The position numbers were made by a program, and so were the translations under genes. From a virus: a stretch of DNA of 64,000 bases. Where the stretch lies: the IMG/VR virus record IMGVR_UViG_3300008267_000027, positions 23,175 to 87,174 of that record; one strand, written 5' to 3'. Position 1 is the stretch's first letter, and every line of letters starts with the position of its first letter. Positions 6,024 to 58,128 of the stretch are shown one piece after another. A model generated the notes under the pieces. The model was not told the DNA's origin. It saw nothing but the letters and a program-made list of their open reading frames with translations, and made no database searches.

Positions 6024-8956
6024 TGAGAAAAGACTCACCCTTATTAGCTTTTTATTATGATAGACTTCCATCTAAGAAAGAAGGTGGTCCTGGAGATGGA
6101 ATATTTGATTCTGTAGTAAGTAAGTTAAATCCATTTAATTGGGGAGTAACAGACTATAGTAAATCTGGTTCATTTAAAAATGCTTATTCAGCAGCATTAA
6201 AGAATAATGAAAAGGAGTTCATGTATAATAATAAAAGGTATAATACTAATTATAAAGGTACAGAACAGCAACAATTATCAGCTACAGGTATTACAAACAA
6301 TCAAAGAATGAATCAAAATGTTTTTAGGAAAGCTCTTAGAAACATTGATCAAGGAAGTGGTAGTGAGGATGTTGATGAAGGTTATAATGGATATCCTAAT
6401 CCTTTTAATGCTCTAGGAGATTTGCTTGCTGGTAAAAAATATAATACTCAAGATGATCCAGAGCAAACAGATATGCTTAATATTTATGCAGGTGCCCCAC
6501 AAAAAAATAACACATTAGGTGTTAGTAGGTATAAACCAACTAAGATAAAAGAAAATAATGCATCAACCTACTATAGAGTCAATCCATTAAATAATAAAAT
6601 GCCTAATCAATTGACTCAAGAGCAATTTGATTATGTATTAAAGAATAAAGCTTTTAGTGATTATCTTCCAAATTTTAACAGTTATGTAGATGAGCAAGGA
6701 AAACCGCATAACAACTATAGAGGTCTTGGTACTTTTACTATTGATGCTGGAAAAGATGACAGGGGTGATTATATTTCATATTATGACAAATGGGATTTAA
6801 ATCCATTTAGTTCTGGAAAAAATGCACCTGATTTATCATTAGGTGTAGGTAAACCTTATGAAATTTATGATAGAATATATTATAAAGACTATGGAAATGG
6901 GGTTAAAAAAAGAATGTATTATAATGATAGTGAACTAAGTAATTTAGATTTCAAATCTAAAAATTTTGATACTAAAGCCTTACAGAGAGAGTTGGCAAAC
7001 AGAGGATATAATCTATCTAAATCTTTTATTAAAGATGATGAGGATTATGATGGGATACTTGGTGAAGAAACCAAAAAAGCATATTTAGATTGGAAGTCTA
7101 AATATCAAACTCCTAAAAAAGAATATGGAGGTATTACAAAATACGGACCTGGTGGTATGACTAAAGATCCTAATAAACCTTATTCTAAATCTAATCCAGA
7201 GGGATATGTTAGTTTAAAAAATAATCGAGACTGGTTTGATAGTCATGCTAATTGGACTAACACTGGAAATCCTGAGTGGGATGCTAAAGTTAGACAACAG
7301 ATACTAACAGGTAGATTTGGACTTGATCCTAAATCAGGTGCATTAATAAAGCTTGATAAAAATGAATGGGTTAATGTTCCATCAGAATATAAAAGAGAAG
7401 CTACAGATACTAGACAATGGACACCTGAACAAAAACAACAATCTTGGGAAAAGAAAGTTAAACCTCAAATAGTACAAAGTACTAAAGACTTAATTACTAA
7501 TCCAGTGATGATGGCACCTGGTGCTATACTTACAGGAGGTATGGCTGCAGGTATTCCTGCTATATCTAGAACAGCAGCAGCTGTTGTGCCTGCTTTAGAA
7601 ACATCAATAGGAGGTATACCAGGACTTACAGCAGGTAATCTTATTAATGCAGGGTTTGCATATCAAGGTGCTAAAAATTTACCTAATGTAGCAAGTGCAT
7701 GGAAAGATGTAGCTAATAAACCTACGTGGGGTGGTGTAGGAAATGCTTTAGGTCAAACAGCACTTACAGCAATAGATATCTTACCTTTTGCTAGTACAGC
7801 TGCTAAAGGTATCCCTAGCGTAATGCAAGATGTCAATCAAGCCGGTAATTATTTAACAACACAAACTCCTTTAAAGAGTACATATAAATTAAATCCTTGG
7901 GCATTTAAACCTCAAGAAGGAATGATGTATAGAGGTCTTGGACAAGAAGGAATGGAAGATGCTATTCAATCTGGTGTATTTAGACCTAAGCAACATGGTT
8001 ATGCAGAAGGTAGATCTTTAGCAGAAAAGGTCACTACACCTAAACAGTTTGGTAGTACATTTTATGCTCCTGCTGAAAGATTTGGAGTGGTTGAAAATTA
8101 TGGACCTAGTTACTTAGCAGAAGTTCCTTTTGAAGGTAATGAGTTTGCCAGAAGATATGGAAGAAAAGATTGGAGTTGGAGTACACCTAGACAAATACCT
8201 ATTGAGGAAGGAAGAATACTACAAAAAAATTGGCTAAGAGGATATAAAGAAGTTCCTAAACCTACATCTTTAAGTTCTACTGTAGAAACACCTAGTAACT
8301 TAAGTACTATTAATTTAGAAAGGGGAAGTCCTAAATCTAAATCAAAAATGTATAAAGCTAGTGAAGTAGTTGATGACCCTCACTTTAACATTAAAAAAAT
8401 ATTTAGAGGGGATAAAGAAGTTCCAAAAGAGATTAAGATTGTCGGAAAATCTGGAGATTGGACAGTTAATAAATCTAAAGATGGAACCTATTATTTTAAT
8501 GCTTCAATGTCTAATCCTTTAGAGTCAGGAAAAGCAATGTTAAAAATAAATGAGTTATTACCATCTAAATCTACGATATTAGAACCAAACAGTTTAAGTT
8601 TAGATTCATATAAAAATGTTTTAAAACTAGGGAAAAGACCAGGTTGGAAAATGGAATTTGAAAATTATATACCCTTAAATCATAGTGCAATACATGATAA
8701 AAGTTTAGCTGATAAATTTGGGTTTACTCCTGATGCATACACTGTTCCTTTTGAATCATTAGAAGATGCTAATAAAGCTTTAAAAGAAGTAAACGCAATG
8801 TTAAAAAAACAAGGAATTAATTATGAGGCTGATGTCTTTTCTAATGGTATTGGATTATATGGTATAAAAATACCAAATTTTAAATTAACTAGAGGCTATA
8901 AAAAGGGTGGTAAAGTAAATCCTTTACAGCAATTCTATATGAGTAAAATTAGGTAG
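6023..8956 (+). CDS. Virion/cargo protein with peptidoglycan-binding and ART-like domains
   Basis: This is a 977-residue multidomain protein. Near residue 20 it has the motif GGPGDGIFDSV, echoed in the next gene. Around residues 315-360 the sequence LQRELANRGY..DGILGEETKKAYLDW matches the peptidoglycan-binding domain 1 pattern. A hydrophobic stretch follows at about 490-550. Residues about 635-720 resemble an ADP-ribosyltransferase fold: YRG (R637), an ST pair (S678-T679) in GSTFYAPAERF, and possible downstream acidic residues; this reading is tentative. Y-GG and GPGGMTK steps occur after the wall-binding domain, and the C-terminus carries KKGGK. It sits between the giant tail protein and a peptidase protein, so delivery through the cell envelope with the genome is likely. 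Confidence 0.6.
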   Translation: MRKDSPLLAFYYDRLPSKKEGGPGDGIFDSVVSKLNPFNWGVTDYSKSGSFKNAYSAALKNNEKEFMYNNKRYNTNYKGTEQQQLSATGITNNQRMNQNVFRKALRNIDQGSGSEDVDEGYNGYPNPFNALGDLLAGKKYNTQDDPEQTDMLNIYAGAPQKNNTLGVSRYKPTKIKENNASTYYRVNPLNNKMPNQLTQEQFDYVLKNKAFSDYLPNFNSYVDEQGKPHNNYRGLGTFTIDAGKDDRGDYISYYDKWDLNPFSSGKNAPDLSLGVGKPYEIYDRIYYKDYGNGVKKRMYYNDSELSNLDFKSKNFDTKALQRELANRGYNLSKSFIKDDEDYDGILGEETKKAYLDWKSKYQTPKKEYGGITKYGPGGMTKDPNKPYSKSNPEGYVSLKNNRDWFDSHANWTNTGNPEWDAKVRQQILTGRFGLDPKSGALIKLDKNEWVNVPSEYKREATDTRQWTPEQKQQSWEKKVKPQIVQSTKDLITNPVMMAPGAILTGGMAAGIPAISRTAAAVVPALETSIGGIPGLTAGNLINAGFAYQGAKNLPNVASAWKDVANKPTWGGVGNALGQTALTAIDILPFASTAAKGIPSVMQDVNQAGNYLTTQTPLKSTYKLNPWAFKPQEGMMYRGLGQEGMEDAIQSGVFRPKQHGYAEGRSLAEKVTTPKQFGSTFYAPAERFGVVENYGPSYLAEVPFEGNEFARRYGRKDWSWSTPRQIPIEEGRILQKNWLRGYKEVPKPTSLSSTVETPSNLSTINLERGSPKSKSKMYKASEVVDDPHFNIKKIFRGDKEVPKEIKIVGKSGDWTVNKSKDGTYYFNASMSNPLESGKAMLKINELLPSKSTILEPNSLSLDSYKNVLKLGKRPGWKMEFENYIPLNHSAIHDKSLADKFGFTPDAYTVPFESLEDANKALKEVNAMLKKQGINYEADVFSNGIGLYGIKIPNFKLTRGYKKGGKVNPLQQFYMSKIR

Positions 8957-13370: not shown

Positions 13371-15668
13371 ATGAAAAAAAGAGTAAAAATTATTAAAGCT
13401 CCAAGTGGTAAACCATCTGTAGGTGATCAAATGGGATATGGATTATACAGAGGTCAAGGTGTAAGAGACTTTGAATCTTTTCCTACTGGAGATCCTGATT
13501 CTCAAATTAGAACTGTTTATCCTCAGTCACCGAGAAGTGAAGCTAATATAGAAGTTGAAGGTGGTGGTAAAGGTAAAAAAGGTGAGAAGATCATTGCAAA
13601 AGATGGTCTATCCATATTTGATATAGTTGGAAATAGACATAGTAAGGGAGGAGTTCCTGTTAAAGCAGAGCCTGGAAGTTATGTTGTTTCAGACTTTATT
13701 AAAGCTCCTAAAAGTATGCAGGCTGAAATGGGTTTTAATGTAAAATCTAATAAAGGAAAAGATAACACATGGGCTAGAGTTTTAGAATCTAAAGTTCCTA
13801 CTAAAGATTATAACAGACTGTCTCAGATATTAAAAGATGCAGCTGCTGGTAAACCTATTGATAAGTTTGAATTAGCTACAGCTAAAGCTAAGATGGGTGT
13901 ATATCAGGATTATGTATCTAAAGCTGCACTTGGTAACGAACTTACTAAAGCACAACAGGGTAAAGATTTTAGTATTCCTCAAATAGGTATGCCTGCTTTA
14001 CAAAAGATGTACCCAGAGATTGCTGAAAGAATGATGGGTGAACAAGACCAAGAAAGTCCTTCTGAAGATCAACAAGAAATGATGGAGTATGGTGGTTCTT
14101 ACTATGGACTACCTAAAGCATTAGAAGGTCAAGATATTATTCCTTGGTTAAAGGGTAAAACTAAAGCTGGATCATTCACACCTACTAAACTATCTAATGC
14201 TTTTAATAGACCAGATTCATATATACAAGATTGGGCTCAAATATTAGGTATGAATGTTGATGATTTGAGAGCAATGGATAATAAAGATGTACAATCATTA
14301 ATATATGATTGGAGTCTTCAAAATAATCCTGACGCTATTAATCAAATGTGGAGAAAGTATGGATTAACCAATCAAGGTAAAAAATATAAAGATTTAGTTG
14401 CATTAACTCAAAAAAATAAAAAAGGAAATCCTTTATATACTTTTGGTAAAGATTTGTCACCAACAGAATTAGCTGCTCTTAAAAAAGCTTACACTGATAA
14501 TTTATTTGGAGCACGTCAATTGGATATTCCAAGAGAAGAACCTATAATACCTATTAAACCACCATCTTTTACAGATGATATAACTCCTCCTGAGCAAGAA
14601 CCAGAAACACCAACACCTCCAGCACAAGGTATGAAATGGTTTTGTAGTCCTGTGACAGGTCAAGCTACACCTGTACCAGCAGATTTAGCTGGAGGGTCTA
14701 CAACCTATTATAATACTAAAGAGGAGGCTGAAGCAGCTTGTGGTAAAAAAGAACAATCTAATGATGGTGGTAAAGAAACTAAAAAAGAAGATCCTCAATT
14801 TGTTAAACAACAACTTAACAATATAGGATTATATCCTCAAGATGTTTTTAATACAGCTAACGCTCTTCTTAATCAGTATGCCTATCCTACAATAGGACCA
14901 TTTGAAGGTAGATATAATCCTATTTATATGGACCCTGCTTTTACTAGTACAGAGGCTGCTGATAGACTTATACAGTCACAGGGAAGGACTGCTATGGAAG
15001 ATGCTAGTCTTTATGGCGCTAGTCCTCAAGCTCAGAATGCAAAACTCGCTCAGATAAATGCATCTGTTTTACCAGCAATGATTCAAAATAGAATGCAAAC
15101 TAATGCTCAAAATGTACAAACAGATATGGCGACTAGACAGTTTAATGCACAAGTGGCTAACCAAGCTGCTTTACAAGATGCTGCTAGGTCTACTAGTTTG
15201 TATGATAAAACAGCAAAACTAGCTATGAATAAAGCTGAGGAAAAAGTTAAAGGTAGAACAAAAACTAAAGATGCTATTAATAAAACAATTACTAATTGGG
15301 GTAATGCAAAGTTAATGAGTCAACTTTTTCCACAGTATGCTTTTAATCCTTCAACATATGATGCATTTTTTAAAGGTGGTAAAGGATACAATGATGATGT
15401 ATCAACATATGGAAGAACTGCTGGTATGAACAATATGTCTGATTATGCTTCTTTATATAAACAAGGATTAGCTGCTGCTAGAGATCAAGCTGGTATAACA
15501 GATCCTAAAGAGGCTCATGAGGCAGCTATGAAATTTATCAGTCCATATTTTAGATCAACTGCAAGAAACTCTGATGATGATGATGCATCTACATTTATGA
15601 ATGCTGCAATGAGAGTTAGTAAAGATGGAGGAATGTTCATACCTATTTACCAACTAGGAGGTTGGTAA
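13371..15668 (+). CDS. crAss-like virion/cargo protein with GNRHSKGG domain
   Basis: A 765-residue protein with a basic N-terminus (MKKRVKIIKAPSGKP). A domain around residues 75-140 contains FDIVGNRHSKGGVPV followed by GSYVVSDF, a pattern I associate with large Bacteroidota phage virion proteins, without a known function. Then comes a proline- and acid-rich linker near residues 395-420 and a cysteine pair (WFCSPVTG..EAACGKK). The last 270 residues are helical and rich in alanine and glutamine. EYGGSYYG, KDGGMF and the terminal LGGW continue the aromatic/GG pattern of the neighbours. It closes the virion block and is followed by a hairpin. It is probably packaged in the capsid or tail. Confidence 0.55.
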   Translation: MKKRVKIIKAPSGKPSVGDQMGYGLYRGQGVRDFESFPTGDPDSQIRTVYPQSPRSEANIEVEGGGKGKKGEKIIAKDGLSIFDIVGNRHSKGGVPVKAEPGSYVVSDFIKAPKSMQAEMGFNVKSNKGKDNTWARVLESKVPTKDYNRLSQILKDAAAGKPIDKFELATAKAKMGVYQDYVSKAALGNELTKAQQGKDFSIPQIGMPALQKMYPEIAERMMGEQDQESPSEDQQEMMEYGGSYYGLPKALEGQDIIPWLKGKTKAGSFTPTKLSNAFNRPDSYIQDWAQILGMNVDDLRAMDNKDVQSLIYDWSLQNNPDAINQMWRKYGLTNQGKKYKDLVALTQKNKKGNPLYTFGKDLSPTELAALKKAYTDNLFGARQLDIPREEPIIPIKPPSFTDDITPPEQEPETPTPPAQGMKWFCSPVTGQATPVPADLAGGSTTYYNTKEEAEAACGKKEQSNDGGKETKKEDPQFVKQQLNNIGLYPQDVFNTANALLNQYAYPTIGPFEGRYNPIYMDPAFTSTEAADRLIQSQGRTAMEDASLYGASPQAQNAKLAQINASVLPAMIQNRMQTNAQNVQTDMATRQFNAQVANQAALQDAARSTSLYDKTAKLAMNKAEEKVKGRTKTKDAINKTITNWGNAKLMSQLFPQYAFNPSTYDAFFKGGKGYNDDVSTYGRTAGMNNMSDYASLYKQGLAAARDQAGITDPKEAHEAAMKFISPYFRSTARNSDDDDASTFMNAAMRVSKDGGMFIPIYQLGGW

Positions 15669-15671
15669 ACC

Positions 15672-15697
15672 TTATAAGTTTAGTTTTAAACTTATAA
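15672..15697 (+). terminator. Hairpin, probable intrinsic terminator
   Basis: Ten paired bases (ttataagttt / aaacttataa) enclose a six-base loop, four bases after the stop of the 765-aa gene, and are followed by tatttttc. The stem is AT-rich, so it may be only a partial terminator. It marks the break between the virion block and the cargo/polymerase block. Confidence 0.5.
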
Positions 15698-15705
15698 TAT
15701 TTTTC

Positions 15706-15723
15706 AGTATATTATATTATATC
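15706..15723 (+). promoter_or_regulatory. AT-rich promoter-like element before the cargo/RNA polymerase block
   Basis: The run AGTATATTATATT (15706-15718) just before the 980-aa gene is repeated base for base at 56334-56346 in the divergent intergenic region. The gap between genes is only 59 bases and also contains the upstream hairpin. If used as a promoter it would give a very short leader. The assignment rests on recurrence and position, not on a known consensus. Confidence 0.35.
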
Positions 15724-15727
15724 TATT

Positions 15728-18670
15728 ATGGCAACATACTTACAAGACGGTGTTGGTTATTTTCCTGATGAACAATTGTTCACCCCAGATTATAACATTA
15801 TTATGAGGGTTTTGCAAACAAAGCAAACCCAATATGATTCAGCGTTTAACAAACTAAAAAGCATTCAGAATTCAATACTGAGTGCTGATTTATTAGCAGA
15901 TGACACCAAAAAGAAAAGAGATGACATTTTAAAAAATGCTGAAACTGCTCTTAAAGATTTACCTACTATTGACTTAAGTCTTCCTCAAAACTATACAGCA
16001 GCTAAAAATATTTTTCAACCTTTTTATGATGATAAAGATATCTTAGCTGATATGCTTTATACAAAAGAATCAAAATCTAATCTTCAGTCTGGTATGGCAT
16101 TGCAAAATGATGCTAAAGAAGAAAACAGAAATAGATACTGGTCTCAAGGTGTTCAATACATATATGATGGTATGGAAGACTTTAAGAATGCTACACCTGA
16201 AGAAAGAAGAGGTATGCGAGCTAGACGTTATGTAGCTAAACCTAATGTTGATGATGGTATTTTAAAAATGTTCCAGGAAGGTAAAATTAAAATGTCTGTT
16301 GATAATCTATCTGGGCAAGCTAAATATACAGATGAAAATGGTAAACAACTTCAACTACCATTAATGAATCTTTATATGAGTATGGCTGAGAATGATCCTG
16401 AAGCTTTAGAAGGTTTTAAGGTGATGGGTTCTGTAGAAAGAAGTAGATATATAAGAGAAAATACTGATAGATTAGGTGGTCGTAAACAAGCTGCAGAAGA
16501 CTTTGATAGAAAAATGGTATCTGATTATAAAACTAATAAGCAGTTTGAAATAGATAAAATTAATGAATCTCTTTTGGTTTTAAATACTAAAGTAGATTCT
16601 TGGAAGAAAAAAGCTGACGCTGGACAATTGTTAGCAGCTGATGCACAACAAGCTGCTGCAGATATTGCACAAAGAGATAGACTGCAGAATGGTCTCAATA
16701 CATCACAGAGTCAATTTAATAATGCTGAGGAAAGAATTATGGGTAATCCTACAGCACACTTGGGAAATATATATTTAACTAAAAATGCTAAAGATTTAGC
16801 TACAGCTCTTTCACAATTTGGAAGTAGAAAGATTGATGTTAATCCTATATATGAAAAATTTGTTTTTCCTAAAGAACTAGAGCTATACAAGCATCAGTTA
16901 GCTAAGGATATGGAAAAAGTTAAAGCTGATGAGCAAATTAGAGTAAAAGGTGCTGAAGCTGATATTAAAAATGAATATGGTGGTGGAGGTTTTGGTGATG
17001 GTACATCATCTACTACAACAGGTGGTACAACAGGTGGAGGAGCTGGTAGAAAACAATTAGACATACCATTTGCTGAAGATATTAAAAGCGGTGCAGGTAT
17101 CCCTTATGTAGATAGTGCTGGGCAAGCTGATGCATATAAACAACAACAGAAAAAAACAGAAACTATTGTAAATGAGCTATCATTTAATAAGCTTAGATTT
17201 TTAGAGTCTGTTTTAAGTTCTAATGAATTTGTTGATTCAAAAGGTAAACCTATTCCTTATAATAAAAGAAATACTCTTCTGCAAAACGGTACAGAGCTTG
17301 ATGGTTTATATAAAAAAGCATTAACTAAATACAATACTTGGGTGGATACAAAAGACTCAAGAATGTATGGTGTTTTAGATTTAAAAGAAAAAGTTGAAAA
17401 CTTAAATAATGTTTGGAGTGCATCTATTGAATTTAGAAAACAAAAACTCACTGAAGTATCTAACATGATTGCTGGTGAGAAAGTTTCTGAAGATGGATAT
17501 GTCTACAAAAGTATATTAAAAGATGGATTACTTCCTGGGGAAAATCCTACAGATAAAAATGATTTCCTTAAAAGAATTCAATCTAGTAAAGAGTTTAATG
17601 CTAAAGTTACTGAAAGATACGCACAAGAATTAGCAGAGTATCAAAAGAATACTATGCTTGCTCCTGTTAATGCTATATATGGATTAAGAACTTTATTTAG
17701 CGGTGGTGTCCCTACAAAGGAAAAAGTAAGAACGGAAATGCTTTCTGATCTAGAAGATAATTATTCTAAGTATGTAAATGACGTTAAAATTAGATATAAT
17801 AAATTTGGATATAATTACTATGCTGCACAGACAGGACAAGAGGGTGGTGGTGCGTATGGTAGAATGATAACTTATCAAGGTAAGAATGAAGTTAAAGGTG
17901 AAAAGGCTGATGTTTATACTGAAGATTTATTTACTAAAGTTATAAGTACTAATGAGGGGGATGATGAGGCTATTAAAGTTAGTACTCATACTACAGATGC
18001 TGATGCTGAGATTGAAAATGATGAAGATATCAAATCTATTCTTACAGGAAGAATTAAACAAGATTTATTTACAGCAATAAGATCTGGTAAAGGTGCAGAC
18101 TTAGGAGGATATAGTATAGGTTTTTCTGGCGTAGCTAATAGTGATCCATCTTTTCATAAGTACACTATAAAGTTTGATCAAGATTATATTAATAAACTTT
18201 CAGAAACAAAAACTAAAGTGGGGGCTGGCATAAGTAATGATCAAGCTAAAGCTTTAATAAATGGTATAGACATCTTTGTTAAATCTGATAAAGATAATTC
18301 ATTAATGTCAAGAGAGTCTACACTAGGTGAGGTTGATATACTATTGGGAGTAAATGGTGTAATGAAAAAAGAAATTGTACCAGGATATGGTATTGATATT
18401 GAAAAACTTTCAACTGGAGGTTATAAAGTTACAACAAATTATAAAGTTGTTACAAAAGATAATTTAAGTGGAAATCCTACATCTCAAGAGCAAATAATAC
18501 CAGAAGGTAGAGACATTACAAATATCTACTATGAGACTTTAAGAGGACTAAGATCATTGTTTGATAACACTCAAAAGAGAGTGGAAGAAATGCAGACAAT
18601 TAGTAAAAATGATCCTAAGAATAAACCTGTTACATATCAAGAACTTTTAGAAATGTCTAGAAGTTTTTAA
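15728..18670 (+). CDS. crAss-like virion cargo protein
   Basis: A 980-residue, largely helical and charged protein. Its N-terminus (DGVGYFPDEQLFTPDYNIIMRVLQTKQ, then ADLLADDTKKKRD and LSLPQNYTAAKNIFQPFYDD) matches my recollection of a protein family encoded beside the giant RNA polymerase in crAss-like genomes. A glycine/threonine-rich hinge near residues 417-440 (GGGGFGDG..TTGGTTGGG) divides it in two. No catalytic motif is visible. It heads the three-gene block that also encodes the polymerase, 27 bases upstream of the latter, which suggests that it is co-packaged and ejected with it. The scaffold or chaperone role for ejected proteins is inference. Confidence 0.6.
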   Translation: MATYLQDGVGYFPDEQLFTPDYNIIMRVLQTKQTQYDSAFNKLKSIQNSILSADLLADDTKKKRDDILKNAETALKDLPTIDLSLPQNYTAAKNIFQPFYDDKDILADMLYTKESKSNLQSGMALQNDAKEENRNRYWSQGVQYIYDGMEDFKNATPEERRGMRARRYVAKPNVDDGILKMFQEGKIKMSVDNLSGQAKYTDENGKQLQLPLMNLYMSMAENDPEALEGFKVMGSVERSRYIRENTDRLGGRKQAAEDFDRKMVSDYKTNKQFEIDKINESLLVLNTKVDSWKKKADAGQLLAADAQQAAADIAQRDRLQNGLNTSQSQFNNAEERIMGNPTAHLGNIYLTKNAKDLATALSQFGSRKIDVNPIYEKFVFPKELELYKHQLAKDMEKVKADEQIRVKGAEADIKNEYGGGGFGDGTSSTTTGGTTGGGAGRKQLDIPFAEDIKSGAGIPYVDSAGQADAYKQQQKKTETIVNELSFNKLRFLESVLSSNEFVDSKGKPIPYNKRNTLLQNGTELDGLYKKALTKYNTWVDTKDSRMYGVLDLKEKVENLNNVWSASIEFRKQKLTEVSNMIAGEKVSEDGYVYKSILKDGLLPGENPTDKNDFLKRIQSSKEFNAKVTERYAQELAEYQKNTMLAPVNAIYGLRTLFSGGVPTKEKVRTEMLSDLEDNYSKYVNDVKIRYNKFGYNYYAAQTGQEGGGAYGRMITYQGKNEVKGEKADVYTEDLFTKVISTNEGDDEAIKVSTHTTDADAEIENDEDIKSILTGRIKQDLFTAIRSGKGADLGGYSIGFSGVANSDPSFHKYTIKFDQDYINKLSETKTKVGAGISNDQAKALINGIDIFVKSDKDNSLMSRESTLGEVDILLGVNGVMKKEIVPGYGIDIEKLSTGGYKVTTNYKVVTKDNLSGNPTSQEQIIPEGRDITNIYYETLRGLRSLFDNTQKRVEEMQTISKNDPKNKPVTYQELLEMSRSF

Positions 18671-40200: not shown

Positions 40201-40819
40201 TAAAGCATATCATGATGAAAATTTAGGTGAAACAGAAGGTATATTTAATTCATTCTATAAGCTTAACAAAGCAGTATATGATATGACCAAATTAGAAGGA
40301 GGCTTTTGGAAAGGTATTACTAAGAAAAAAACATTTACAGAAGCATGGGCGACTATGAGTGATTATCAAAAGGCTAATATGTCAAGATTGTTAGGATATA
40401 TGGCATTTTATATGTTATCATTATTAATGAAGCATTTGTGGAGCTTGCTTGCAGATGAACTTGCTGATGATGATACAGGTGAAGATCATCCAATAACTAC
40501 TAAACTTGTTAACTTCATGGTGTATTTAGATGATAGAACTATGAGTGAGATATCAGTTGCTATTAACCCAACAGAGGTTGGTCAGTTCATCAAAAACCCA
40601 GTAGCTATTGTAGGTTTTGTAGGGGATGTTTGGGATGCTCTTAGTGAAAGTGCTCACTTTATATTACCTCCTTATGGAGAAGAAGATGAGGTGTTCCAAA
40701 GAGGTGTTAATAAAGGAGAGTATAAATGGAGAAAAGAGTGGGGAGATGTACTACCTTTCTTCAGCACTATTAATAAATGGGACAGTTTTGAAGAACTTAA
40801 AGATTTCTATATTAAATAA
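34229..40819 (+). CDS. Polyvalent protein: GNAT-like, ART-like, degenerate zincin and PD-(D/E)xK modules
   Basis: A 2196-residue protein starting six bases after the polymerase gene. Residues about 52-62 carry FKEWFGDWEG, a signature of phage polyvalent proteins. A GNAT-like acyltransferase segment follows with the cofactor-loop pattern QGKGIGSK (Q155). Residues about 246-400 look like an ART module: VVDENGEPKLVFHWS, FLNLRN, GYDGFFY, then ESQIKSLYNKGAFS. VVEEFLHPFV (residues 628-637) resembles a zincin whose first histidine is now E630. A PD-(D/E)xK nuclease fold shows GKLD (D920), IIDLKTS (D934, K936) and QQGYKRM (about 978-984). The long helical remainder ends with a hydrophobic segment, YMAFYMLSLLMKHLW. 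Such proteins are thought to be injected to modify or protect against host factors. Confidence 0.7.
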   Translation: MSCQVIRNTDTNEIEKVLAPNGKESMLYKDINKYITSKEEALLAYAQIYTPSFKEWFGDWEGKEESKSDLLLNAYNNVDISNAEKDDYKIVINDNLYLDNSEGKDSYYGYWMPIMSDGEDIGRIRFEQKLNVIEKEGKPVKTFSPNIQIYDKSNQGKGIGSKVHLALYKYVKSIHPNVPFVSDVQNTVAEMALLKSFEREGIVKQINPIGEISEKYGNYSVENAPFIFNDEYFKKETKETSGISQVVDENGEPKLVFHWSPVQGIERFNLAGIGSHFGTFEAADQVNEAKSKTKFTLVDEEMGTEEEVEIKSEPGEFYPAFLNLRNMSEITDKGQHTEEKDGPEAKTLLDEGYDGFFYTNQYEDIGSTSYVATEESQIKSLYNKGAFSKESGNIYANVEPNGQLNDPVTAAAIKELQDKGFLSQTADGRSGAYYISKPGSTTTKTADLIDEITEIESLLESKNIEYKRIGDTIRIYGLPRYNYSYSFVSLDTEEDQINNIDDLKKELGISGKSLSVAEFKDVNRSVKAFNEQKDTNYLIVSDQNTDGTITIRNIVEDKTLNRSTLSVTQELMDRLQALFPEIKVQYINQNEISKYTNGRFTNNDPSLNSFVKNGVVYLIKDRFTGDIVVEEFLHPFVSSLIADNPQLADSLYSEISNKYSDIIDMVEDTYVDGLGFTEEDRRNEIITKGLQRAFSERLHKSFKSKDRTMKDLIETFMDWVRDLIRTITGRKKLYTGELSTKMSVDDIINMLDSNIQIKLGNLNPNVYANLSQEKIDILNYLVKNATAEQKQIVEALFDNGIVHDEVDHTYQKVILDENGDIEEVIDYTSMTTAIKGPFEDTAYELNRDIGTEFDFIMNSVVMGEDFNVIQPQLKVVNEETAAKFYDMISNVIVGLKSSGAIVVPQIVVGSDADAIAGKLDLLIVEPSGKMRIIDLKTSATNDVKNNPKKYNKKYEIDNEQSMLNGENLSNRDLHGLQQQGYKRMIELDARLTEYEVESVKTLHYRFEINDGKAVNIIYDDLVDHTDGHYDELLNKIIPSQPLERSTGLSSSLSAEAAKPENKETVREIRDLVKDASNMLQKRREFYQKINETSKGKFIVSKEYLTALDEIIATINEAVLTGKPSSAYYQLVKYINQDVKDKSRTIGQMTDRSESLQFMLEAEKDLMTYKDLLLPPKLYLNNKVIDKLAKDSLNTIQQTLDLIDNQVQQFTVDFVANNTSRNLTREEVEGIIKEAEDISMHQSLFGDLSTSSDTMLSVLDKVYKRKRQEVIDFVQKLEIEIKTAGNKLASLTTDKDKMYDFMIGTDDQGNPTGYTVDKIGKQYWSKKREIKNKLIDPETKLRYKYRDVRNPKTASKEDIEFNMNLKKLRDEEAEFNKKEYLNANGELVDGPYHKYTQEFKEARAKVMRLKIRKNSSGEATGFEWIPKNAESKEFKDFERKYYSQETTYLSPKYEYDKASKTYIFKGRTEEASGRFVKSEYVEVREIAENGEDMRDEKYVNIMNDNSELGIARREYYQTWKRLYGELLEKLPDGVKMKTRLPVISSGMIAKAKKMGGGSNYFKSILKGVGRSINPFSKSTFHHSVILDEDGNVVSNIPVFYTSDLKSEYVIDKVKEKIRNLNERWAKKLPDDDGSILTYDEYRQKLDKLTKSLKIEQGKTSASEISTEMTNNLVQFAEMAENFQVMSAFESTVISVLRTLKNRKVTKRDPEGNFITNSLDKATAKFRGDDSLTEQRLRKWMDMVLYNSKNPYRSRMGNFVAKVKLLMSIKGVGLNPFGQLNNLKMGNINNMAEAAGGTIYNKNDYKKAVKAFTVDYLPAFLSAKKDYILSRGKDKNGDYYSMPKSLTKYDALANKYRMMRAMQSKDGIEGYEGKTMDILFMMQHGAEFSVQTKSGIAILNNKTFTNKVTGEKISIYDAHSFDQKTGELYLDPSLYEETDQDRYDMTNLIYETNKRLHGNYAWEDRMVIQQNLIGELVAQFHKWVYPYWRRFWGKAYHDENLGETEGIFNSFYKLNKAVYDMTKLEGGFWKGITKKKTFTEAWATMSDYQKANMSRLLGYMAFYMLSLLMKHLWSLLADELADDDTGEDHPITTKLVNFMVYLDDRTMSEISVAINPTEVGQFIKNPVAIVGFVGDVWDALSESAHFILPPYGEEDEVFQRGVNKGEYKWRKEWGDVLPFFSTINKWDSFEELKDFYIK

Positions 40820-40848
40820 AGAAAGGGAGCTTAATTGCTCCCTTTCTT
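40819..40848. terminator. Bidirectional intrinsic terminator between convergent blocks
   Basis: Twelve paired bases (core GAAAGGGAGC / GCTCCCTTTC) surround the loop TTAATT. The plus-strand stop ends at its left edge and the minus-strand stop lies inside its loop. It serves transcription arriving from both sides, at the border of the virion and replication halves. Short A/T runs flank both sides. Confidence 0.85.
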
Positions 40849-41280
40849 GACTTCAAATGGATGTTTCATTAAGAAACAATCTTGTTCCCATCCCATGTGT
40901 TTTTTAAACCCATTGAGAAAGTCCTGAATATTCTTAGCACCTACAGGATTATGTGAGTGTACACAACATTGTTTTAAAGGTGTATTCATTTTTTGAGAAT
41001 ACTCTACTACAAAGTTAGCACAGTCCATCCCAGTCTTTTCTTTATAAGTTTCATATTCTGGAATCTGAAACCCTTGTTTAGCAAACTGACTATAATAGTC
41101 ATTCATGTGTTCTTCTGCTAAATCATGGTCAAAACTGATAAGATCAGGAATACCGTTTTCTATAATCCATTTAGTAAACTCATCATAGTTTCTCACTACA
41201 TTCCAGGGATGATAACCAGGAAGAGTTTCTGTAGGAGTACGTACATCATCTAGGTAAAGAGCTGTCTTCATGTATTTCAT
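40831..41280 (-). CDS. cREC (cyclic-phosphate-processing receiver-like) domain protein
   Basis: A 149-residue single-domain protein. The N-terminus TALYLDDVRTP and the central LISFDHDLA match the acidic pockets of the receiver-like cREC family, and CCVHSHNPVGAKNI near residue 107 supplies the family's conserved histidine/asparagine motif. The family was proposed by others to act on cyclic phosphates of nucleotides or RNA ends; experimental proof is not known to me. It is the last gene of the minus-strand transcript, overlapping the upstream gene by 35 bases, and its stop lies in the terminator loop. A start at the second ATG (41271) is equally possible. Proximity to a phosphoesterase gene suggests a shared nucleotide-phosphate role. 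Confidence 0.72.
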   Translation of the reverse strand: MKYMKTALYLDDVRTPTETLPGYHPWNVVRNYDEFTKWIIENGIPDLISFDHDLAEEHMNDYYSQFAKQGFQIPEYETYKEKTGMDCANFVVEYSQKMNTPLKQCCVHSHNPVGAKNIQDFLNGFKKHMGWEQDCFLMKHPFEVKKGSN

Positions 41281-55815: not shown

Positions 55816-56301
55816 TTAAATAACTTTATCATATTTTTCTTTTAGTTTTTCAATAATATTAACATAAATACACAAATAATTTTGATCATATTTAATCAAA
55901 TCTTCTGCTTTCTTTTCTAAGTGCATTATTGTAGAATGATCTCTATTTAGATAGTTCCCTATTGCAGCAAGTTTAAAACAGAAAGCTCTTGCTATTTTGG
56001 TAAATATAGACCTAGCATCTACAAGTTCTCTCTTTCTACAAGCATTTTTTAAGTCGCCATCTTTTAGTTCATAAGGGTAATTTTGCATAATGATTTGCTC
56101 AATATCTTGTAGATTGACTACTGGATAGTCTTCATCAATATTAATCTTTTCTGTTCCATTAAAGATTTTATGTATATCTGGGTTGCTTAATTGAATTGTA
56201 ATTTTTAAACCAGTTTTATACTTAAAGTCCTTAACAAAGTCTTTTATTAGCTTTTCAGCTAATATGTTTCTGTACTCTAAAGCTGTCATTGTTTTCTTCA
56301 T
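55816..56301 (-). CDS. DnaA domain IV-like replication initiator
   Basis: A 161-residue protein. Residues about 94-145 match the DNA-binding domain IV of DnaA: RELVDARSIFTKIARAFCFKLAAIGNYLNRDHSTIMHLEKKAEDL, including the RDHST signature. The ATPase part of DnaA is absent; the first 90 residues are a different helical region. Known for its domain: it binds DnaA-box DNA at origins. It is the first gene of the minus-strand block, reading away from the structured intergenic region at 56302-56514, its probable target. Whether it brings in the host DnaA or acts alone cannot be told. Confidence 0.8.
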   Translation of the reverse strand: MKKTMTALEYRNILAEKLIKDFVKDFKYKTGLKITIQLSNPDIHKIFNGTEKINIDEDYPVVNLQDIEQIIMQNYPYELKDGDLKNACRKRELVDARSIFTKIARAFCFKLAAIGNYLNRDHSTIMHLEKKAEDLIKYDQNYLCIYVNIIEKLKEKYDKVI

Positions 56302-56514
56302 AAAATTTAAAGTTGGTTATTTATTTGTTTTTTAGTATATTATATTGTAGATAGTTCATAGTAGAACCTTATAGTGTGCCAGGTTATTAACACCTTTTTA
56401 GCAACTATATTTGATCAGCCTGCCTCTCTCAGGGGTTGTCTTTAAGACAGATCAATAACCTGGTGACACTGGTTCTATTATATATTGTATAATTTATAAA
56501 CATGTTTATGTAAG
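56302..56514. promoter_or_regulatory. Divergent control region (candidate origin and promoters)
   Basis: 213 non-coding bases between the DnaA-like gene and the plus-strand fibre/lysis block, the longest gap in the window. AT-rich elements AGTATATTATATTGTAG (56334-56350) and CTATTATATATTGTATAAT (56475-56493) flank a 124-base inverted repeat. One AT-rich element recurs before the polymerase block at 15706. It must hold promoters in both directions. A TATATTTG (56406-56413) resembles the Bacteroidota -7 box, but no fitting -33 box is clear. It is the most likely origin because the initiator gene adjoins it. Confidence 0.6.
56358..56481. ncRNA. Long interrupted inverted repeat; candidate structured RNA or origin
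   Basis: Left arm 56373-56388 (agtgtgccaggttatt) pairs with right arm 56454-56470 through 16 base pairs with one G-U pair and one bulged base. Further out, 56358-56368 pairs with 56471-56481 over 11 more base pairs, a four-base bulge (56369-56372) lying between. Inside, gatc at 56413 and 56450 can pair and enclose two hairpins: CCTG/CAGG with a seven-base loop, and TGTCT/AGACA with a three-base loop. The result is a branched fold about 124 bases long. Whether it acts as RNA or DNA is not decided by the sequence. Confidence 0.5.
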
Positions 56515-56823
56515 ATGAGCGGAACTCCTAACCCAAAAAACTCTATGGCTAATACCATAAAGATATATCTTTTTCCAGCATTAGTTACAATTTTAGCAAC
56601 ACTTATTTGGAGAGATGTTACAGAAATGAGATCTGATATAAAGGCTCTTTTAGCTCAGTCTAACATAGATAAGACTGATATTCAAAATCTTAAAAGAGAT
56701 GTTGATAAGTTAGAACAAGCTGTTTTTCATAAAAAAACAATAGCTCAAAATAGTTTACCCTGGTATATGAATGTTTATTTTAAACCTGAGGAAGAATATG
56801 ATGTTAAGAAGTATTTAAATTAA
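56515..56823 (+). CDS. Small membrane protein with coiled coil
   Basis: 102 residues. One membrane segment (IYLFPALVTILATLIW, about residues 17-32) is followed by a coiled coil with heptad-like spacing (MRSDIKALLAQSNIDKTDIQNLKRDVDKLEQAVF). An internal ATG at residue 11 could also start it. It opens the plus-strand fibre/lysis block. The topology fits an inner-membrane protein with a soluble coiled coil. It may assist holin or spanin action, but the evidence is positional. Confidence 0.6.
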   Translation: MSGTPNPKNSMANTIKIYLFPALVTILATLIWRDVTEMRSDIKALLAQSNIDKTDIQNLKRDVDKLEQAVFHKKTIAQNSLPWYMNVYFKPEEEYDVKKYLN

Positions 56824-56829
56824 TTAATT

Positions 56830-58128
56830 ATGGTAGATGGTCAAACAGTAAGAATATTAGAAAGCATCAACAAACAGCTATGTTGTATTAAAAACAACCA
56901 AGCTGATGGTTTGGATGTTACACTTGCACCTTCTACAGCACAAGATAGCTTTGGAAGACTAAGAGTTTCTGAACCTTTTACACTATTTGACTCAAGCCAT
57001 AGATTTGATGATAACGGACTTTGGGTTACATCCACTGCTACAGATGGAGCAGCTGTATTCAATGCTGATCAAGGACTTGTAGATTTAAATGTTACAGCAG
57101 CTTCTGGTTCTTCAGTTACTAGAGAAACAATTAAAGTGTTTGCTTACCAACCAGGTAAGTCACTCCTTGTTATGAGTACATTTGTAATGTCTACTGCTAA
57201 AACAGGACTTACACAACGTATTGGTTATTATGGAGCTGATAATGGTTTTTATTTAGAGCAAGCTGGGTCAGCAATATCTTTTGTAAAAAGAAGTATTGTA
57301 ACTGGATCTATAGTAAACACTCCTGTTTTACAAGCTGATTGGAATGGAGATAAGTTAGATGGTAATGGTCCTTCTGGTATTACTTTGGATCTAACAAAAG
57401 CTCAGATTCTTTGGATGGATTTAGAATGGTTAGGTGTAGGTTCTGTACGTATGGGGTTTGTAATAGATGGTCAGTTTATACTGTGTCATACATTTCAACA
57501 TGCTAATATATTAGCTTCAACATATATTACAACAGCTTCATTACCATTACGTTATGAGATATTTAATACAGCTGGTACAACTGGGAATAGCACATTAAAA
57601 CAAATCTGTTCCACTGTAATCTCAGAAGGAGGATATGAACTTAGAGGAGCACAATATGCAGTAGGTACTCCAATTGCTTCTCCTATAACATATACTGTTG
57701 CCAGTACTTATATACCAATAGTAGGTTTCAGGCTTAAATCAACAAGACTTGATGCCATTGTAATTCTTACTGCAGTGTCTATATTAGGACTTGGTAATGG
57801 TAAAAATTACTCTTGGAGAGTTGTTCAAGGTGCAACAATTAGTGGAGGTGGTGCATGGGCAACTACAGGAACTGATTCGTCTGTTGAATACAAGTTAGAT
57901 GGAACATCTGCTACAGGTGGTAGAATTCTTGCACAAGGATATGTAAACTCATCTAATCAGGGATCTCCTAGTATTAATATTCTTAAAGAAGCATTATTTG
58001 CAAATCAGTTAGAAAGAAATAGTTTCACTGGTACACCTTATGAGTTAGTATTAGAAGTAGCTATAAGTGATGCAAGTGGTACAAATGGAGTACTTGCTTC
58101 TGTAGATTGGGAAGAAATAAGTAGATAA
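56830..58128 (+). CDS. Virion fibre/structural protein (FGRLRVSEP family)
   Basis: A 432-residue, largely beta protein. The signature DSFGRLRVSEPFTLFDSSHRF near residue 40 matches a structural protein family found in many phages. The following segments (GSSVTRETIKVFAYQPGK, QADWNGDKLDGNGPSGITLDLTKAQILWMDLEWLG) look like jelly-roll strands. No enzyme motif. Its N-terminal coil (VRILESINKQLCCIKNN) may trimerise it. It shares an FGRLR block with the next gene and leads a fibre series, so a capsid or tail fibre role is likely. Confidence 0.65.
   Translation: MVDGQTVRILESINKQLCCIKNNQADGLDVTLAPSTAQDSFGRLRVSEPFTLFDSSHRFDDNGLWVTSTATDGAAVFNADQGLVDLNVTAASGSSVTRETIKVFAYQPGKSLLVMSTFVMSTAKTGLTQRIGYYGADNGFYLEQAGSAISFVKRSIVTGSIVNTPVLQADWNGDKLDGNGPSGITLDLTKAQILWMDLEWLGVGSVRMGFVIDGQFILCHTFQHANILASTYITTASLPLRYEIFNTAGTTGNSTLKQICSTVISEGGYELRGAQYAVGTPIASPITYTVASTYIPIVGFRLKSTRLDAIVILTAVSILGLGNGKNYSWRVVQGATISGGGAWATTGTDSSVEYKLDGTSATGGRILAQGYVNSSNQGSPSINILKEALFANQLERNSFTGTPYELVLEVAISDASGTNGVLASVDWEEISR

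Follow-up and report, generated by a model that had tools for sequence, protein, structure and literature searches.

Which function is served by a long branched inverted repeat lying between two divergent gene blocks of an environmental phage: replication origin, DNA-bound control site or structured RNA? The sequence-only reading of this DNA had left all three possibilities standing. The question bears on a subject about which little is known, the control of transcription in crAss-like and related environmental phages, which are among the most abundant viruses. Comparison with relatives points to a hitherto undescribed control RNA as the most likely answer, ahead of a replication origin. The outcome is a putative directional promoter motif conserved in approximately 55 relatives, together with an undescribed structured leader RNA that can be tracked in sequence data.

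The gap and its inverted repeat

The stretch analyzed here (the window, 64,000 bp) comprises bases 23175–87174 of an 87,174-bp virus record. When ORFs of at least 60 aa are considered, the gap at 56302–56514 (213 bp) is the largest in the window and the only divergent one; it had been described as the sole large intergenic gap, which is right as to rank and divergence but overstated, as other gaps measure 184, 174 and 161 bp. The inverted repeat proposed at 56358–56481, with its stems, bulges, closing gatc pair and two small hairpins, is present base for base, and the assignment of a DnaA domain IV gene beside it is confirmed by a Pfam match (E-values here are approximate). The features of the locus are:

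55816–56301, − strand: DnaA domain IV-like DNA-binding protein, 161 aa, divergent neighbor (Pfam Bac_DnaA_C, E 4e-10)
56336–56350, + strand: promoter-like motif TATATTATATTGTAG, which in relatives always faces the rightward genes
56351–56514, + strand: predicted 5' leader of the late transcript running rightward, situated between the motif and the start codon (ATG) of the 102-aa gene
56358–56368, + strand: P1 5' arm (ATAGTAGAACC), pairing with 56471–56481 (11 bp)
56369–56372, + strand: 4-nt bulge TTAT in the predicted fold
56373–56388, + strand: P2 5' arm (AGTGTGCCAGGTTATT), pairing with 56454–56470 (16 bp, bulged G at 56465)
56389–56410, + strand: large 5'-side internal loop, unpaired in the fold; region of hairpin Ha in class I leaders (defined below)
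56411–56416, + strand: P3 5' arm TTGATC, the closing gatc helix, pairing with 56450–56455
56419–56436, + strand: hairpin Hb with a CU-rich loop (CCTG/CAGG, or GCCTCT/AGGGGT in the MFE structure)
56437–56449, + strand: hairpin Hc (TGTCT/AGACA)
56450–56470, + strand: P3 3' arm (56450–56455) and P2 3' arm (56454–56464, bulged G 56465, 56466–56470)
56471–56481, + strand: P1 3' arm (GGTTCTATTAT), pairing with 56358–56368
56515–56823, + strand: first rightward gene, encoding a 102-aa protein with a hydrophobic N-terminal stretch; travels with the leader

The DnaA domain IV-like region of the 161-aa protein is a helix-turn-helix. Leftward beyond its gene lie replication genes, including a DnaB-like helicase, while to the right of the gap the 102-aa protein is accompanied by a virion structural protein and by genes that, from their sequence, we read as lysis genes; the rightward genes occupy 1–64 kb of the record and the part beyond 79.7 kb. 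The 161-aa protein evolves fast, with 26–35% identity to most relatives and 71% to one of them, L001. The helicase changes much more slowly, at 74–98% identity in the same close relatives.

Over 161 nt, the RNA MFE is −47.0 kcal/mol versus −30.9 ± 3.5 kcal/mol for dinucleotide shuffles (z = −4.63; none of 200 shuffles as low), and the 120-nt core alone gives z scores of −4.2 (+ strand) and −4.0 (− strand). By absolute energy the repeat ranks only 12th among the 130-nt neighborhoods of the 87-kb record, since coding DNA is richer in GC and folds more stably; the repeat is distinctive only when composition is taken into account, and by its conservation. Rfam 15 covariance models gave no match above the gathering threshold in the window, and permissive Rfam scans of the leaders of the window, L010, L126 and L143 gave chance-level matches only. 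ARAGORN found no tRNA or tmRNA cloverleaf, and a nucleotide search of named phages returned no relatives of the gap.

A directional promoter-like motif

Relatives were fetched by scans with the helicase and the 102-aa protein, and approximately 55 distinct ones contain the same divergent gap. The motif TATATTATAYTG(TAG) or a near copy is present in every relative gap inspected, facing the rightward genes. The pattern TATATTATA[CT]TG has 60 distinct contexts in the fetched loci: 55 are the divergent gap, with the pattern directed toward the 102-aa gene, and three of the remaining five sit 20–33 nt before an ATG in the same direction. A copy with two mismatches at 15708–15722 of the window follows a terminator-like repeat and precedes an ATG at 15728, and another relative has a second motif site, also after a terminator. 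The motif is not a textbook sigma site; from its placement and orientation we read it as a directional promoter, and the sequence that follows it is therefore taken as the 5' leader of the rightward transcript.

Two occurrences are of interest in their own right. At 15667–15728 of the window the copy, GTATATTATATTATAT, follows the terminator-like inverted repeat and lies ahead of a 980-aa gene, an arrangement that suggests a second rightward transcription unit including the giant ORFs. In an apparently unrelated phage contig (L012, positions 7071–7094), an exact 24-mer, TTTGTTTTTTAGTATATTATATTG, precedes a helix-turn-helix gene in a divergent gap; it could reflect a host promoter common to both or a coincidence of AT-rich sequence.

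Conserved pairing in the leaders of relatives

A long stem and a branched module directly follow the motif in nine distinct leaders, all from metagenomic contigs: those of the window, L096, L001, L010, L014, L016, L126, L140 and L143. Their + strand z scores range from −3.5 to −6.9, and for each leader at most one of 300 shuffles reaches so low a value. Five of them (L001, L010, L016, L126 and L143), designated class I, have an alignable inner domain consisting of P3 and hairpins Ha, Hb and Hc, and in each of the five Ha has the form GGTTAA-loop-TTAACC.

The sequence-only reading had proposed examining the same gap in related genomes for paired changes in the stems, and compensatory changes are indeed found. 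In a MAFFT alignment of the inner domain that was not hand-fitted to the structure (A11), 96.6% of cells are paired and 8 of 24 pairs have changed on both sides, versus 2.5 in shuffles (0 of 500 shuffles match); every slide control collapses to at most 47% paired. A hand alignment of five helices across up to nine leaders yields 226 of 228 cells paired and 26 of 28 pairs changed on both sides (0 of 2000 shuffles as high), figures that represent an upper bound because the alignment was fitted to the predicted structures (outer stems), inflating the statistics. The outer stems P1/P2 are largely rewritten with pairing kept (GGTACTGGG/CCCAGTACT, AACCGAGCTA/TAGCTCGGTT, GTTAATCGGGCAA/TTGTTCGGTTAAT). 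Hb keeps its position and pairing in other leaders (GCAC/GTGC, GCAT/ATGC, GTAC/GTAC), and Hc occupies the homologous position as TACAA/TTGTA and the like. Between the window and L096, substitutions affect 5 of 78 paired versus 11 of 41 unpaired sites (p 0.004), and one P2 pair, 56381/56461, has undergone a compensatory A–U to G–C change in L096.

A model of the class I inner four-way domain (R1) scores the five class I leaders at 82–95 bits, values that are not independent because all five built the model, and has one match per carrier genome, always in this gap. R1 does not match the leaders of the window, L096, L140 or L014, so that common descent of the inner module across the nine remains unsupported. 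The window leader is a second class that shares the outer stem and the Hb and Hc positions, and whose inner module is represented by two sequences. A class I motif search of host genomes and elsewhere in IMG/VR returned the known leaders only, and a class II motif search returned L096 only. A kissing interaction between an Ha loop AGUU and an Hc loop AACU could form in three class I members; it is absent from L016 and imperfect in L126, and is not claimed.

As to which strand carries the structure, the + strand z is the stronger in eight of the nine leaders and clearly so in seven. In the window and L001 the two strands hardly differ in how well they fold, and in A11 the G–U cells (4) do not outnumber the A–C cells (4, all at helix ends); for these reasons, the assignment to a + strand RNA rests mainly on the direction of the promoter and on the outer stems.

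An accessory leader exchanged between lineages

The branched leader is accessory: in 36 relatives the leaders measure only 29–99 nt and lack the branched structure, some having a simple hairpin. Every phage that combines a readable gap with a helicase identity of 74% or more to the window possesses it (five phages), and four further branched leaders are scattered in a lineage whose helicase is approximately 37–38% identical, most members of which are without it. Phage L144 resembles L096 to the left of the promoter (72%) with the structure absent. In the tree of the 102-aa protein the window lies beside a short-leader phage, L095, showing that the presence of the leader is patchy.

The two sides of the promoter have different affinities in the window. 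To the left of the motif the window is 83% identical to L001, and its helicase is 97–98% identical to that of L001 and 38% to that of L096. Its leader is 84% identical to that of L096 and 59% to that of L001, the latter being background (shuffled mean 53, maximum 59), and its first late gene, encoding the 102-aa protein, shows 73% nucleotide identity to L096 and 61% to L001. On these identities the window is a recombinant with its junction at the promoter, L001-type to the left and with an L096-type leader and first gene. This mixed ancestry indicates that the leader moves together with the late side rather than with the DnaA-like gene, and a recombination junction at the late promoter suggests a route by which such modules spread. 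That the DnaA-like protein and the gap co-evolve, an idea prompted by how poorly both are conserved next to a 98% identical helicase, was rejected, as the window's leader and its DnaA-like gene come from different lineages.

These histories bear on the proposal that the repeat is a DNA-level control site, i.e. an operator at which the DnaA-domain protein or another regulator would recognize a cruciform or paired binding sites. The divergent gap, the adjoining DNA-binding gene and the near-perfect DNA palindrome arms found in several relatives are what such an operator might look like. It does not, however, predict closely similar structures whose stem letters are rewritten between relatives with pairing kept. 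Moreover, the structure is one-sided, lying after the promoter, it is absent from most relatives with the same gene, and the window's leader does not share its history with the DnaA-like gene. We therefore disfavor an operator as very improbable.

Other sequences occupy the position behind the promoter in further relatives. In L114, L115, L128 and L130, a small membrane-protein-like ORF (MKNWKTTLGGVLAAIG...) replaces the branched leader after the promoter, and the spot thus looks like an exchange hotspot. L147, L152 and L156, with helicases 57–61% identical, have another long leader type (184/175 nt) whose outer stem TATAGACGAAGG is paired to a CCTCGTCTATA-like sequence; fold support for this type is weak. 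In the more distant relatives L229, L235, L242 and L245, the motif ahead of the 102-aa homologue is followed at once by a short hairpin (e.g. TGTAGAG...TTCTACA), so that an mRNA beginning with a hairpin may be a general feature. Near the left end of record L093 (positions 404–759) lies an intergenic region containing a strong hairpin of terminator-like form (CCTTAGTGC...GCACTAAGG) and a small ORF rich in lysine.

The replication origin hypothesis

An origin had been the first suggestion for the repeat, and two observations agree with it: replication genes lie on one side, and the GC skew changes sign at the site. The predicted turning point at ~56.4 kb does exist, as does another sign change at ~40.8 kb; both are explained by gene direction, and since the skew follows gene orientation exactly, the turn is not independent evidence for an origin. 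The gap contains no match to the DnaA box TTWTNCACA and no iterons. The element, a single-copy accessory module that is exchanged between lineages and segregates by recombination from the DnaA-like gene, is missing from the majority of relatives that have this gap. A replication origin at this site is accordingly disfavored, to the point of being scarcely credible. The window also contains an inverted repeat at 40806–40861, between convergent gene blocks, which is probably a bidirectional terminator.

A model for the late leader

A conserved, pairing-constrained structure thus follows a directional promoter-like motif, is optional, and has been exchanged horizontally. The replication and structural/lysis blocks of crAss001 face in opposite directions, and its transcription modules, middle and late respectively for these blocks, follow ORF orientation (PMC8375218). 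By analogy, the gap of the window would divide middle from late genes. Of the earlier suggestion of a structured RNA made early in infection, the structured RNA is supported by the directional motif and the compensatory changes; the early timing is not, since the genes downstream are those for lysis and structure, which are late in crAss001.

The data have led us to propose, with a probability of roughly two in three, that the repeat is the DNA of a structured, swappable 5' leader RNA acting in cis on the late operon, its transcription, start site, late timing and role all being predictions from sequence. Transcription would start at the TATATTATAYTG(TAG) promoter at 56336–56350 and proceed rightward; the first ~125 nt would fold into a closed domain, with the P1/P2 end stem interrupted by small bulges and capped by several hairpins, and transcription would then continue into the late genes, those for lysis and structure. 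As an exchangeable module, the leader would sit between the promoter and the first late gene, with a short leader in relatives that lack it. Its most probable role would be in protecting or processing the 5' end of the late message, which would be very long, and/or in recruiting a host or phage factor via its conserved loops. As the same promoter occurs with and without the leader among these phages, its role can be tested by presence/absence and by leader swap.

Alternatively, the folded domain might be cut from the late transcript, e.g. at the P1/P2 duplex by a double-strand RNase, and act in trans as a small RNA, such as a decoy or an RNA for anti-defence or packaging. A closed domain with paired 5' and 3' ends, a cloverleaf-like three-hairpin module with conserved loops, and an accessory, horizontally exchanged distribution of the kind typical of anti-host functions would suit such an RNA. 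However, no terminator lies behind P1, the only + strand site being inside hairpin Hb, neither Rfam nor tRNA searches gave a match, and the element is always in the leader position, never elsewhere; we regard a trans-acting RNA as unlikely. The odds are likewise against a new, host-directed phage RNA (e.g. one with anti-defence or RNA-polymerase-binding activity) encoded by an exchangeable cassette that follows the late promoter and precedes the first late gene. If this were true, an arms race would rewrite the stems and keep the shape, and the cassette would spread between distant phages sharing a host.

A third possibility is processive antitermination, in which the nascent leader would bind RNA polymerase so that terminators of the long operon are read through. 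The put sites of phage HK022 are a pair of simple stem-loops, RNA antiterminators that act from the leader. There too a structured RNA opens a long phage transcript, and the promoter-proximal position, in front of a long co-directional gene block, is common to all nine leaders. Terminator-like hairpins occur in 7 of the 36 short leaders of relatives versus 1.6 expected; this is a minority, and promoter-proximal terminators were dropped as a general rule. Unlike put, the leader has one long end stem around a branched module, and neither a put-like sequence nor the simple two-hairpin form is evident in it; in addition, the promoter-like site and terminator at ~15.7 kb suggest more than one transcription unit. 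Antitermination of this type is distinctly unlikely, but together with the trans-acting RNA it is to be taken seriously as a rival of the cis-acting leader.

Returning to the cis-acting leader, other structured RNAs invite comparison. Hairpins that stabilize phage and bacterial mRNA 5' ends, or that are processed by RNase III, are likewise long hairpins a few nucleotides from a presumed 5' end; the leader, like the stabilizing hairpins, precedes a polycistronic phage message, and a short hairpin substitutes for it in relatives. It is much more complex than they are, its apical loops are conserved, and it is exchanged horizontally. The packaging RNA of phi29, ~120 nt with hairpin loops and closed by an end helix, is similar in size and end helix, but the leader is missing in most close relatives and lies before lysis and structural genes. 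Ro-bound Y RNAs and YrlA have 5' and 3' ends joined in a long stem and a cloverleaf-like cap, both of which the leader resembles. The Ro/Y RNA idea arose from the TROVE protein encoded by crAss001 (PMC8375218) and was rejected, as no TROVE/Ro protein was found in 21 related records (control positive; records may be incomplete), a result that also weighs against the trans-acting RNA. All these are analogues from general knowledge, and the leader fits none of them as a family.

Relation to crAss-like phages

In the Crassvirales plan, exemplified by crAss001 and phi14:2, oppositely oriented replication and structural blocks form separate transcription modules (PMC8375218, PMC10136315). The block layout of the window is similar, and a structured leader is mentioned in neither paper: the text of PMC10136315 contains no occurrence of 'promoter', 'noncoding' or 'untranslated', and that of PMC8375218 no 'intergenic', with 'non-coding RNA' in one reference only. 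No structured leader in crAss-like phages was found in the searchable, mostly non-subscription literature, which is weak evidence of novelty.

The crAss-like kinship assumed by the sequence-only reading draws support from this layout and from the window helicase, whose best named-phage matches are Crassvirales. Against it, several major structural ORFs of the window, two large ones among them, have no match, and the RNA polymerase motif DxDGD was not found in the giant ORFs. The best matches of the window DNA polymerase are other phages, not Crassvirales. The crAss-like label is plausible on these matches. A first scan of host genomes with the helicase gave no match.

The rightward block of the window also contains a 432-aa virion structural gene (56830–58128) with approximately 66–68% DNA identity over ~1 kb to cyanophage genes (S-RIM50, S-RIM12; phrog_1645), and L001 has a different gene at this place. 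Such a distribution suggests that the 432-aa gene was transferred between very different phages.
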